Positions 1 through 4,738 of a stretch of DNA of 43,292 bases are shown piece after piece. The translations under genes were made by a program, and so were the position numbers. Location: contig JAUSEK010000015.1 in the NCBI GenBank assembly GCA_030650275.1, positions 131,834 to 175,125 on the forward strand, written 5' to 3'. The notes beneath the pieces were generated by a model. The model was given only the letters and a program-made list of their open reading frames with translations. It was not told the DNA's origin and searched no databases. The DNA is from Candidatus Omnitrophota bacterium (GTDB lineage Bacteria; Omnitrophota; Gorgyraeia; Zapsychrales; Fredricksoniimonadaceae). Numbering within the stretch: the first letter of the stretch is position 1; every line of letters begins with the position of its first letter.

Positions 1-683
1 AGTTCGATTCCCTGGTCAAGGTCAGCCAGTCCATCACCTCCGAGCGTTATCTGGATGAGATCTTAAATCTTATCGTGGTCGTCACCGCCGGGATGCTCAA
101 TTCCAAGATTTGTTCCATCATGCTGCTGGATGACAAGGGCGTTCATTTGTCCATCAAGGCCACACAGAGTTTGAGCGAGGAGTATAAGCGCAAGCCCGAT
201 GTGAAGGTGGAGAACAGCCTCATCGGCACGGTCATCAAGACCCGCCGGCCCCTGGTGGTTGAGGACGTGCGCCACGATGAGAAATATTTTTACCGCGACC
301 TCGCGGTCAAGGAAGGGCTCACGTCCATGGTGGCCGTGCCCATGATCGTCAAGGACAAGGCCATCGGGGTCATCAACGTGTACACCAAGGAGCCCCATCA
401 TTTTACCGGCGAAGAAATTGATGTCCTGCAGATCGTGGCCAACCAGGCCGCGGTCGCGGTGGAGAACACCAAATTGATGGAGGAGGCCCTCAAGGCCAGG
501 GAAGCCCTAGAGACCCGCAAACTCGTGGAACGCGCCAAAGGCATCCTGATGACGATGAACCGCCTTTCGGAAGATGCCGCCTACCGGCTCATCCATAAAA
601 AGAGCATGGACACCTGCCGGAGCATGAAGGACATCGCCGAATCCATCATCCTCATGGCGGATCTGCAAAAAAATATTTCTTGA
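1..683 (+). CDS. GAF-ANTAR transcription antiterminator (5' end outside window)
   Basis: The reading frame is open from base 3 and has no convincing start inside the window, so this is the 3' part of a longer gene. Visible residues form a GAF sensor domain (about the first 150 residues; segments such as SIMLLDDKG, GTVIKTRRPLVVEDV and VGVINVY-like GVINVYTKEP) followed by a short helix and a C-terminal ANTAR domain (RKLVERAKGILM, then EDAAYRLIHKKSMD and MKDIAESII). ANTAR domains bind tandem RNA hairpins in nascent mRNA and stop a terminator from forming; GAF domains sense small molecules or receive signals. The gene lies directly upstream of amt-PII-glnA, and a matching two-hairpin leader with a terminator follows it, so I infer that it controls that operon. 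The input signal is unknown. The promoter -35 of the next operon overlaps its stop codon. Confidence 0.9.
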   Translation, partial: FDSLVKVSQSITSERYLDEILNLIVVVTAGMLNSKICSIMLLDDKGVHLSIKATQSLSEEYKRKPDVKVENSLIGTVIKTRRPLVVEDVRHDEKYFYRDLAVKEGLTSMVAVPMIVKDKAIGVINVYTKEPHHFTGEEIDVLQIVANQAAVAVENTKLMEEALKAREALETRKLVERAKGILMTMNRLSEDAAYRLIHKKSMDTCRSMKDIAESIILMADLQKNIS

Positions 684-707
684 CAGCTTTTTTTTATCCG
701 GTATACT
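680..707 (+). promoter_or_regulatory. Sigma-70-type promoter of the amt operon
   Basis: TTGACA at 680-685 and TATACT at 702-707 are separated by 16 bases, a near-consensus housekeeping promoter. The -35 box overlaps the TGA stop of the GAF-ANTAR gene. Transcription would start near 714, giving a leader of about 140 bases before amt that contains the hairpins and terminator listed next. Confidence 0.8.
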
Positions 708-733
708 TCCATTTGTAGTTTGAAATTTGGTCC

Positions 734-782
734 GTTCGGGGCATGGATGTCCCGGACAGCAGTAAAGGACAAAGATAGTCCT
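734..782 (+). promoter_or_regulatory. Candidate ANTAR-target RNA: two tandem A1/G4 hairpins
   Basis: Hairpin P1 pairs 734-742 with 749-757 (9 continuous pairs including two G-U) and presents the hexaloop AUGGAU at 743-748. Hairpin P2 pairs 766-770 with 778-782 and presents the loop AAAGAUA at 771-777. Both loops have A at position 1 and G at position 4, the recognised ANTAR-target signature; the second loop has seven bases, so it fits only if A777 is bulged. The linker is 8 bases. The 3' arm of P2 is also the 5' arm of the terminator that follows, the classic antitermination layout. Binding by the upstream-encoded GAF-ANTAR protein is inferred. Confidence 0.72.
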
Positions 783-817
783 CTGGCCGCTAAAAGCGCC
801 GGAGGATTTTTTATTTT
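779..817 (+). terminator. Intrinsic terminator in the amt leader (attenuator)
   Basis: Bases 779-790 pair with 796-806 (TCCTCTGGC with GCCGGAGGA, then GC/GC around one unpaired C) with a UAAAA loop, followed by TTTTTT at 807-812 and further T-rich sequence. It sits between the promoter and amt, so it can abort transcription before the operon. It shares bases 779-782 with the preceding hairpin P2, so the two cannot form together. Confidence 0.85.
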
Positions 818-855
818 ATCCGTATTAACCAAAAGTAAAAGGGAGGGTGAACGTA

Positions 856-2094
856 ATGGGAACAAATCCGATCAATGCCGGAGATACGGCGTGGGTACTG
901 GTTGCGTCAGCCCTGGTTTTGCTGATGACGGCGCCAGGTTTGGCCTTATTTTACGGAGGCATGGTCCGGCGTAAAAACGTTCTGGGTGTTTTGATGCAAT
1001 GTTTTATCTGTTTGGCGCTGGTCAGCGTCTTATGGGTTGTGTACGGTTACAGCCTGGCCTTCGGCAAAGGCAGTCCTTTTATGGGGGGCTTGGACTGGTT
1101 CATGCTCAAAGGCGTCGGACAAGATCCAAACATGGATTACGCGGGGACCATTCCGCACCTGGCGTTCATGATCTTCCAGGCCATGTTTGCGGTGATCACC
1201 CCGGCCTTGATCATCGGCTCTTTTGCCGAACGCATGAAATTTCCCGCGTTCTTGGCTTTCACGGCCTTGTGGCTGACCTTTGTGTATTGCCCGATCGCGC
1301 ATATGGTTTGGGGCGTCGGAGGGTTTTTGCGCAGTATGGGCGCCTTGGACTTCGCCGGCGGTACCGTCGTTCATATTAACGCGGGCGTTGCCGGTTTGGT
1401 CACCGCTTTATATTTAGGGAAGCGCGTGGGAGTAGAGAAGCCGGGCATGCATAATGTACCCTTTGTTGTCTTAGGGGCATCCTTATTGTGGTTTGGCTGG
1501 TTCGGTTTCAATGCCGGTTCTGCCCTGGCCGCCAATGGTTTGGCCGCTCATGCGTTTGTGGCCACCAATACAGCCACCGCTATGGCAGTCCTTAGCTGGT
1601 GCGTGATGGAGTGGATCTTCGCGGGCAAACCCACGACGCTGGGTGCTGCTTCCGGCGCCGTGGTTGGTTTGGTCGCCATCACTCCTGCTTGCGGTTTCGT
1701 GGATCTGACAGGGGCGCTTTGGATCGGGGCCCTGGCCAGCGTGTTCAGCTTCTTTATGGTGAGCATTGTGAAGCCGAAATTAGGTTATGATGATACCCTG
1801 GATGCGTTCGGCGTGCACGCCATCGGCGGTTTCTGGGGGGCCATGGCCACGGGTCTTTTTGCCACCAAACTGGTGAATTCTGCCGGCGCGGATGGTTTGC
1901 TGTTGGGCAATCCCGGACAGGTTTGGATCCAGTTTATCGCTTGCGCCACCACGATCGCTTATACGGCCATTGCCACGTTCGTGATCTGTTTTGTCGTGGA
2001 TAAGGTCATCGGCATTCGTGTTGCGCAGGAAGAAGAGATCATGGGCCTGGATCTGACCCAGCATCACGAACGCGCTTATACGATTTTAGATTAA
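856..2094 (+). CDS. amt: Ammonium transporter (Amt/Rh family)
   Basis: A 412-residue polytopic membrane protein of the Amt family, which conducts ammonium across the inner membrane and is blocked by PII proteins. Seen in the sequence: many hydrophobic helices, the FYGGMVRRKNVL segment near the N-terminus, Asp165 in ALDFAGG, the pore histidines His173 (TVVHINAG) and His321 (GVHAIGGFWG), and WFGFNAGSALA. I place the start at ATG 856, nine bases after GGGAGG; a GTG at 847 lies inside that ribosome-binding site and is unlikely. No signal peptide of the E. coli type is evident. It is the first gene after the ANTAR leader and is followed by a PII gene, the usual amt-glnK pairing. Confidence 0.96.
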   Translation: MGTNPINAGDTAWVLVASALVLLMTAPGLALFYGGMVRRKNVLGVLMQCFICLALVSVLWVVYGYSLAFGKGSPFMGGLDWFMLKGVGQDPNMDYAGTIPHLAFMIFQAMFAVITPALIIGSFAERMKFPAFLAFTALWLTFVYCPIAHMVWGVGGFLRSMGALDFAGGTVVHINAGVAGLVTALYLGKRVGVEKPGMHNVPFVVLGASLLWFGWFGFNAGSALAANGLAAHAFVATNTATAMAVLSWCVMEWIFAGKPTTLGAASGAVVGLVAITPACGFVDLTGALWIGALASVFSFFMVSIVKPKLGYDDTLDAFGVHAIGGFWGAMATGLFATKLVNSAGADGLLLGNPGQVWIQFIACATTIAYTAIATFVICFVVDKVIGIRVAQEEEIMGLDLTQHHERAYTILD

Positions 2095-2141: not shown

Positions 2142-2483
2142 ATGAAATTGGTCACTGCCATCATCCAGCCGCACCGGCTGGAGGAAGTTAAAAAAGAATT
2201 ATACGCCGCGCAGGTGAACCTCATCACCGTGTCCGAAGTCCTGGGTCACGGCCGCCAGATCGGCGTGGATGAGTTTTACCGCGGGGTCAAGGAAATCGGT
2301 AATTTGTTGCGCAAGGTCCGGATAGATATCGCGGTCAACGAGGACTTCGTTGAGCCGACGGTCAAGGCCATCATCAAAGGTGCCCGCACGGGCAAGATCG
2401 GCGACGGCAAGATCTTCGTCGTGGACCTGCCGCGCTGCATCCGTATCCGCACCGGTGAAGAAGGGTCCAAGGCCATCGGGTAG
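2142..2483 (+). CDS. glnK: PII nitrogen regulatory protein (GlnB/GlnK family)
   Basis: A 113-residue PII signal protein, which normally binds ATP/ADP and 2-oxoglutarate and regulates Amt and nitrogen enzymes. Seen: MKLVTAIIQPHRLEEVK at the N-terminus, GRQ at 37-39 with Gln39, T-loop residues Tyr46 and Arg47, Lys58, the B-loop TGKIGDGK at 83-90, and Arg101/Arg103. The start at ATG 2142 follows GGGAGG with good spacing. Position 51, the uridylylated Tyr in proteobacterial GlnB/GlnK, is Glu here, and position 49 is Val instead of the cyanobacterial phosphoserine. The family call is secure. The symbol glnK is chosen only because of linkage to amt. Confidence 0.95.
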   Translation: MKLVTAIIQPHRLEEVKKELYAAQVNLITVSEVLGHGRQIGVDEFYRGVKEIGNLLRKVRIDIAVNEDFVEPTVKAIIKGARTGKIGDGKIFVVDLPRCIRIRTGEEGSKAIG

Positions 2484-2559: not shown

Positions 2560-2596
2560 TTGAGGGGTCCCATATGATAAATACAGAGAGGTGGGT

Positions 2597-4738
2597 ATGA
2601 ACAAACGCATTTCTGAGGAGATCATGGAAAATCACAGCGACGATTGCGGGTGCCGGAATTTCAGCGAGACCTTGCCGGAACATTTCGGCGAGAACGTCTT
2701 TGGCCTGAAGGTAATGAAGGAAGTCCTTTCGCCCAAGGCCTATGAATCCATTGCCCGGACCATTCAAGAAGGCGGCAAATTAGACCAGGGCATTGCTGAC
2801 GAAGTGGCCGAGGCCATGAAGAAATGGGCCATTGCCAAGGGGGCCACCCACTTTACGCACTGGTTCCAGCCCTTGACTGGCACGACCGCTGAAAAGCACG
2901 ATTCTTTTATCGCCTGGGACGGCCAAGGGGGCGTTGTTTTAAGTTTTTCCGGCAAAGAGCTCATCCAGGGCGAACCGGACGCGTCTTCGTTCCCGTCGGG
3001 GGGCTTGCGCGCGACTTTTGAGGCCCGCGGTTATACTGGCTGGGACCCGACATCCCCGGCTTTTATCAAAGAAGGCCCGGAAGGCGCGACGTTGTGCATC
3101 CCGACGTTTTACATCGGCTATCACGGCGAAGCCCTGGACAAAAAGACGCCTTTATTGCGTTCCATGAAAGCCCTCTCCAAACAGATCTGCCGTCTGGCCG
3201 AACTGTTCGGCATTGACACCAAGGGCAAACGTGCTTACTGCACCGTCGGCCCCGAGCAGGAATATTTCCTTATTGACAAGGCCCATTTTCAGGCCCGTTT
3301 GGACCTGATCGAGACCGGCCGCACGCTCTTCGGTCTCAAGCCGGCCAAACACCAGCAACAGGAAGACCATTATTTCGGCGCCATCAAACCGCGCATCATG
3401 GCGTTCATGGAAGACCTGGACCGCACCCTGTGGAAACTCGCGGTCCCGGCAAAAACACGCCACAATGAAGTGGCCCCGGCCCAGTATGAGATCGCCCCGA
3501 TCTACGAAGATCTCAACACCGGCATTGACCATCACATGATGATGATGGAGATCATGCGCACCCTGGCCGACAAGCGCGGGCTTGTCTGTTTATTGCATGA
3601 AAAACCGTTCGCCGGCATCAATGGTTCCGGCAAGCACAACAATTGGTCTGTTGTCGGTCCCGACGGAAAGAACTGGCTTTATCCGGGAAAGACCCCGCAC
3701 GAGAACGCCAAATTCTTGACCACTTTGTGCGCGATCATCAAGGCGGTGGACACCTATGCCGATCTTTTGCGCGCCTCGGTCGCTTCCGCCGGCAATGATC
3801 ACCGTTTGGGCGCCAATGAAGCGCCCCCGGCCATCGTTTCCATCTTTTTGGGCGAGCAGTTATACGATATTTGCGAGCAGATCGAAAAGGGAGGGGCCAA
3901 ATCCTCCAAACAGGGCGGTATTCTGCATGTCGGCGTTGATTCCCTGCCTCCTTTGGCCAGAGACACCACCGACCGCAACCGCACCTCGCCGTTCGCTTTC
4001 ACCGGCGCTAAATTTGAATTCCGCGCGGTCGGTTCCAACCAGAACCCTTCCGCCGCCAACATGGTGCTCAACACCATCGTCGCGGACGCCATCAGCGACA
4101 TCTGCGACCAACTGGAAGCCGACAAGAAAGCCGGTAAGGATTTCAACGCTTCTTTGCAGAAGGTCCTGCAGGAGATCATCAAGAAACACAAGCGCGTGCT
4201 GTTCAACGGGGACAATTACATTCCCGAGTGGCATGCCGAGGCCAAGAAGCGCGGTTTGCCCAATTTGAAAAATACGCCCGAAGCCCTGGAAGTCCTCAAG
4301 GAAAAAAAGAACATCCGGGTGCTCGTCAAGCACGGCGTTTTATCGGAAAAAGAGCTCGCGTCCCGCTATGAGATCAATAAACACGCTTACAAGACCGTGG
4401 TCGCCCTCGAGGGCGATTGCGCGTCCACCATGGCGCGCACGCAATTGATCCCCGCGGCCGTTTCCTATCAAATGGAATTGGCCGAAACGATCAAGACCGT
4501 GGGCAGCGGCGGCAAAACCACAGGCGTCAAGAAATTGCTTAAGGAGGTCTCCCGGCTGGTGGATGAGGCCTTGTCCTGCGCTGATGGTTTGGACGCGGCT
4601 TTGACCGCACATGACGCGGCCAAGACCAATGCCGGTATGGTCAAACTGCGTGAGGCCGTGGATGCTCTGGAAGCGCTGGTCCCGGCCAATCTGTGGCCTT
4701 TGCCGTCCTACGCGGAAATGCTTTTGATGAATGCGTAG
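2597..4738 (+). CDS. glnA: Glutamine synthetase type III
   Basis: A 713-residue enzyme that makes glutamine from glutamate, ammonia and ATP in the cytoplasm. The length of about 700 residues (types I and II are about 350-470) and motifs [36 protein letters not shown] and [20 protein letters not shown] identify the GSIII (GlnN) class. ATG 2597 follows AGAGAGGTGG and gives a normal N-terminus. It follows amt and the PII gene and has its own promoter, so it may be transcribed both from the ANTAR-controlled start and from its own. A clear terminator follows the gene. Confidence 0.96.

Follow-up and report, generated by a model that had tools for sequence, protein, structure and literature searches.

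A predicted ANTAR-responsive attenuator before an ammonium transporter gene of an Omnitrophota bacterium, and a nested leader design among its relatives

The window, that is, the whole stretch of 43,292 nucleotides that was analysed, comes from contig C15 of an Omnitrophota genome (G000), and its relatives are nearly all named Omnitrophota. Its first part holds the end of a gene for an ANTAR protein, a promoter, a structured leader and three nitrogen genes, all on the same strand:

1..683, + strand: 3' part of a GAF-GAF-ANTAR gene (Pfam GAF and ANTAR)
680..707, + strand: sigma-70-type promoter, TTGACA-16-TATACT (11 of 12 consensus matches)
734..757, + strand: P1 hairpin, 9 bp, with arms 734-742 and 749-757 (folding; covariation in eight amt leaders)
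758..765, + strand: linker of 8 nt, AGCAGUAA (folding; within the range of eut leaders)
766..782, + strand: P2 (antiterminator) hairpin, AGGAC-AAAGAUA-GUCCU, 5 bp (folding)
777..808, + strand: intrinsic terminator stem (folding; helix covariation across 33 leaders)
856..2094, + strand: amt, ammonium transporter (Pfam PF00909, E 3.5e-126)
2142..2483, + strand: gene for a P-II nitrogen regulatory protein (Pfam PF00543)
2591..4738, + strand: type III glutamine synthetase gene (Pfam GSIII_N)

The start of the GAF-GAF-ANTAR gene lies about 546 bases 5' of the window, and its full product (the ORF in locus L078) has about 409 amino acids; the second GAF domain, in the N-terminal part, was assigned by eye. 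This is the sole ANTAR gene found in the genome (a single match), and its product is predicted to be the trans-acting antiterminator for the amt leader. The ANTAR domain can be aligned without gaps to the structures of EutV (6ww6), NasR (4akk) and Rv1626 (1s8n). With the EutV residue numbering transferred by hand, Arg142, Lys143, Lys149, Glu160, Tyr164 and Met172 remain unchanged, Arg stands in place of Lys147, and some of the EutV backbone contacts (Arg168, Asn173, Arg175 and Arg177) are replaced by His, Asp, Cys and Ser. According to PMC8934654, EutV Arg142, Lys149, Glu160, Tyr164 and Met172 contact or position the G at loop position 4 (G4), and these G4-contact residues are conserved in the product of the genome's one ANTAR gene. 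Just 5' of the window (about 1170-1275 of L078), the gene is preceded by a perfect inverted repeat, GGGGACACAATACTTAATTC...GAATTAAGTATTGTGTCCCC, with a REP-like look. The ATG follows a -10-like TATACT at a distance of only about 7 bases, which suggests a leaderless message for this gene.

On the other side of the leader, amt starts at ATG 856, downstream of a GGGAGGG-type ribosome site (with GTG 847 as an alternative start), and the P-II gene 3' of it likely belongs to the same operon. The type III glutamine synthetase gene at 2591 apparently has a separate promoter of its own. A search of the genome with the covariance model R1 (see below) gave no match in front of this gene; in many relatives, the ANTAR motif lies directly before it. 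A promoter-like TTGACA-17-TAATAT is found at 2506-2575, within a long inverted repeat, ACACATTTTTCCCCCAAA...TTTGGGGGAAAATGTGT, that is possibly an operator or the terminator of the P-II gene.

The anatomy of the leader was computed by folding. The promoter is near consensus, as the initial annotation had it; its -35 box shares bases with the TGA (681-683) that ends the ANTAR gene, and, judged from its position, transcription would be expected to start near 714. The two hairpins that had been read from the sequence, with loops AUGGAU and AAAGAUA, and the 8-base linker between them, were found in place, both hairpins exceeding a minimum of 3 bp. The P1 hexaloop (743-748) has A at position 1 and G at position 4 (A1/G4) and is closed by G-U and C-G pairs. 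The P2 loop (771-777, between arms 766-770 and 778-782) also has A1 and G4; it is seven bases long and can be read as the hexaloop AAAGAU plus an unpaired A. The linker falls within the functional range of the eut leaders of Enterococcus faecalis, in which 5-12 nt are found and 3 or 14 nt impair function (PMC3369931). The terminator, with its U tract at 807-812, does reuse bases of P2, although the extent first given (779-782) was too small: its 5' arm takes the entire 3' arm of P2 (778-782) plus A777, and terminator formation excludes P2. At the gathering score, the leader matches no Rfam family; the only matches were at chance level (E 3.8 and 5.3).

The fold of positions 728-815 is stronger than that of 200 out of 200 shuffled sequences (z = -5.8). 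P1 alone was calculated at -14.6, P2 alone at -5.0 and the terminator at -20.2 kcal/mol. P1 combined with the terminator reaches -36.2 kcal/mol, compared with -31.2 kcal/mol for P1, P2 and the truncated terminator stem that remains, and the terminator state is thus favored by about 5 kcal/mol. Since this state wins energetically, the default of the leader is off (termination). In stepwise folding of the growing transcript, P1 and P2 persist through base 803, and by base 806 P2 has been displaced and the terminator has formed. In such a model, read-through would result from a protein that held P2 in place long enough with a few kcal/mol of added stability. The minimum-energy fold also pairs A743 with U748, so that a free P1 hexaloop is an assumption; in the model, the loop may close to a tetraloop.

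The seven-base P2 loop had been named as the weak point of the annotation. Seven bases instead of six still count against a canonical ANTAR target, but the objection loses weight, since seven related genomes also have amt leaders with loops of 7-8 nt and a longer P2 loop is therefore a recurring feature of these leaders. Such loops read AAAGAUA and AAAGAGA within the genus, and AAAGAUA, AAAGAUG, AAUGAAG, AAUGAUAU, AUAGACAC and AGUGAAUU in other genera. A1, G4 and A5 are always kept, and the surplus bases are 3'. The nirB leader of the window genome has a plain hexaloop, AAAGAU, in P2. Perhaps the longer loop weakens P2 and gives a tighter off state. Its recurrence suggests that a strict hexaloop rule misses real targets when searching for them.

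Are the loop letters kept in the relatives along with the terminator? The loci compared were 50 downstream of ANTAR genes in named assemblies and 27 in family genomes (many of them the same assemblies, with repeated sequences dropped), and terminators and overlapping hairpins were located without use of the loop letters. A1 together with G4 was present in 28 of the 41 six-base loops that overlap a terminator, versus 4 of 37 at the remaining terminators of these loci. In 49 leaders, the predicted start and P2 are at least 28 nt apart, which leaves room for P1 (promoter positions being consensus matches, in genomes that are draft assemblies). Hairpins of 5 bp or more with an A1/G4 hexaloop occur in 27 of them, with an average of 0.4 and a maximum of 3 in shuffled sequences. 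Loss of A1/G4 beside a kept terminator would have spoken against the switch, and both have been kept. When hexaloop hairpins of this minimum length were accepted in the same 49 leaders whatever their loop letters, 28 of 36 had A1 and 34 of 36 had G4. Among related genomes, eight amt leaders were compared for P1, which shows two-sided changes at 6 of its 9 pairs, is 98.6% paired and has two invariant closing pairs; sequence-specific closing pairs are also required in E. faecalis (PMC3369931). Some longer leaders have no simple P1, and several of these, L021 and L155 for example, show a bulged P1 by eye, outside the score.

The covariance model R1 was built from 33 leaders and consists of the P2 sequence and the terminator helix; P1 is no part of it and serves as an independent test. 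The terminator helix has 45 cells with two-sided changes, versus 15 in shuffles; P2 is kept mainly as a sequence, GGRC-ANNGAN-GYCC, with no covariation. (An R1-based tally, with G4 in 122 of 122 loops, carries the bias of the model and does not serve as main evidence.) In the window genome, R1 has three matches at E < 0.001, one in the amt leader and a tandem pair in front of a nirB-like gene. Sites were found in 30 of 32 family genomes, 27 of 32 having an ANTAR gene, and in 74 of 285 genomes of the phylum, most densely within the order of the window genome. The motif is present in 67 of 211 genomes with an ANTAR gene versus 7 of 74 without one (p = 1e-4), and the seven genomes with a motif and without an ANTAR match may reflect incomplete assemblies. 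Clear motifs without an ANTAR match are seen in G103 (L175), G024 (L112), G139 and G220; because G139 and G220 are more than 90% complete, they may have lost the regulator or may carry a diverged ANTAR domain.

The first genes behind 102 attenuator clusters include 29 ammonium transporters and 25 type III glutamine synthetases, further 5 nirB-like nitrite reductases, 3 nifH and 2 type I glutamine synthetases. The predicted targets are mostly nitrogen genes, which agrees with the earlier suggestion that nitrogen uptake and assimilation are under this control. In the window genome, the second target is the attenuator pair before the nirB-like gene (L079, leader at about 480-700 on the minus strand), which is cut by the contig end. 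The motif lies before amt, glutamine synthetase and nirB-like genes that are remote from ANTAR genes, for example on contig C3 of the window genome. For other phyla, a 2012 publication reported ANTAR targets in front of amt, nir, nif and gln genes (PMC3369931), and this kind of leader is therefore already known; we found no report on Omnitrophota ANTAR targets in the literature searched. Three or four ANTAR attenuators stand in direct tandem before one gene in L177 (149-390), L132 (1501-1711) and L119 (1501-1741), so that several terminators would have to be passed in succession. In L100 (and likewise in L002/L093), a nested attenuator comes first, followed by a small gene and then by a pair of attenuators before amt, an arrangement that implies step-wise control of a single operon.

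Could such structures arise without an ANTAR switch? A terminator does lie immediately after the ANTAR gene, where it might simply end that gene, and short hairpins with A1/G4 loops can occur by chance. However, the fold is stronger than all shuffles, the motif recurs before nitrogen genes remote from ANTAR genes, and loop letters and helices are conserved and covary. A chance combination or plain end-of-gene terminator with no regulation is thus extremely improbable, and was dropped on the shuffle folding, the loop tally and the P1 enrichment. The hairpins might instead be bound by another regulator, such as CsrA, since the P1 loop contains GGA, or they might be part of a glutamine-sensing RNA, as nitrogen genes are known riboswitch targets in other systems. 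Against this, the leader has no Rfam match, and motif and ANTAR gene co-occur, making either idea very unlikely; the CsrA reading was dropped because the GGA is unconserved (position 3 is G in just 6 of 122 P2 hexaloops).

A closer alternative accepts the ANTAR leader and treats P2 as a single-hairpin site, with P1 dispensable. The distance from start to P2 falls into two groups, 31 leaders with less than 28 nt (nearly all with 3-14) and 49 with at least 28 nt, and 31 of the 80 are consequently too short for P1. In addition, EutV binds single hexaloops in vitro (PMC8934654). Over a third of the leaders thus seemed to have one hexaloop only, and a single-hairpin type was considered for them and rejected, since most carry a second hexaloop at the apex of the terminator, 12-18 nt from the first. 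Two hexaloops are therefore the rule, and in the amt leaders P1 is conserved and covarying, so that a dispensable P1 is unlikely.

In these short, nested leaders, an apical terminator hexaloop that has G4 and starts with A or G was found in 20 of 31 (16 with A1), versus 3 of 48 leaders with room for P1 (p = 3e-8), and in 14 of 24 versus 3 of 44 after removal of similar terminators (p = 6e-6), although the idea arose from part of the same leaders and the p-values are not fully independent. At other terminators, the proportion is 1 of 33, and by the rule used 11 of the 31 short leaders have no such hexaloop. P1 and the apical hexaloop tend toward mutual exclusion (p = 3e-6). Both designs occur together in six genomes, and the window genome also appears to have both: a standard leader before amt and a nested one, AAAAC-AAUGAC-GUUUU, before nirB. 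In the EutV model, the dimer binds P1 first and then passes to P2 (PMC8934654); in nested leaders, the switch hairpin is transcribed first, opposite to the published order. We found no description of the nested design in the available parts of PMC3369931, PMC8934654 and PMC8164766, a literature check that was not exhaustive. The nested design is new in this analysis; the ANTAR nitrogen targets themselves were published in 2012. On balance, we lean toward one GAF-GAF-ANTAR protein serving two opposite designs, with either an always-formed recruiting hairpin first, or the switch hairpin first, within a few bases of the start, and the intact terminator tip as the second hexaloop, which reverses the recruitment-then-transfer order.

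The amt leader itself is very probably an ANTAR-responsive transcription attenuator at which the upstream GAF-GAF-ANTAR protein binds P1 and P2, gives read-through and controls a nitrogen regulon. The initial annotation had proposed such an antitermination switch, and the loop tally, P1, covariation, co-occurrence of gene and motif, and nitrogen targets support it at the level of comparative sequence analysis. Computation gives the anatomy, the conservation and covariation, the mutual exclusion and the target genes, and the following scheme adds what we infer about protein binding, about read-through and about the kind of signal. Transcripts from about 714 would by default form P1 and the terminator and end at about 808-815. 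In its active state, presumably reached under nitrogen limitation, the protein would bind both hairpins at their A1/G4 loops and hold P2, the 3' arm of P2 would be withheld from the base of the terminator, and RNA polymerase would go on to transcribe amt and the P-II gene. The rest of the predicted nitrogen regulon would answer to this protein as well, namely the nirB-like gene here, and type III glutamine synthetase and nifH in relatives.

NasR with nasF (Klebsiella) and NasS-NasT also regulate nitrogen genes by ANTAR antitermination, with nitrate/nitrite sensors in place of the tandem GAF domains found here. In Geobacter sulfurreducens, GnfR, an ANTAR protein with a two-component receiver, acts by antitermination on nitrogen genes. 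The EutV/EutW eut leaders of E. faecalis are alike in having two hairpins with A1/G4 loops, a linker of 5-12 nt, a terminator that overlaps P2, a default off state and an ANTAR regulator (PMC3369931 and PMC8934654); they differ in that the regulator here has no receiver domain, the amt P2 loop has 7 nt, and the target is ammonium uptake instead of ethanolamine use. The 2012 predictions of ANTAR-target regulons, made for Desulfotomaculum and Pelobacter among others, share the P-II, ammonium transporter, nitrite reductase, nitrogenase and glutamine synthetase targets and the several copies per genome; nested-hexaloop leaders are a feature of the Omnitrophota here, with no description found in the available part of that paper (PMC3369931).

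Why do ANTAR systems need two hairpins? The nested leaders are a natural test of this question: if hairpin order proves irrelevant, the recruitment-then-transfer model would be wrong or incomplete. For the organisms, the analysis predicts that one RNA-binding antiterminator governs nitrogen uptake and assimilation across a large group of uncultured Omnitrophota.
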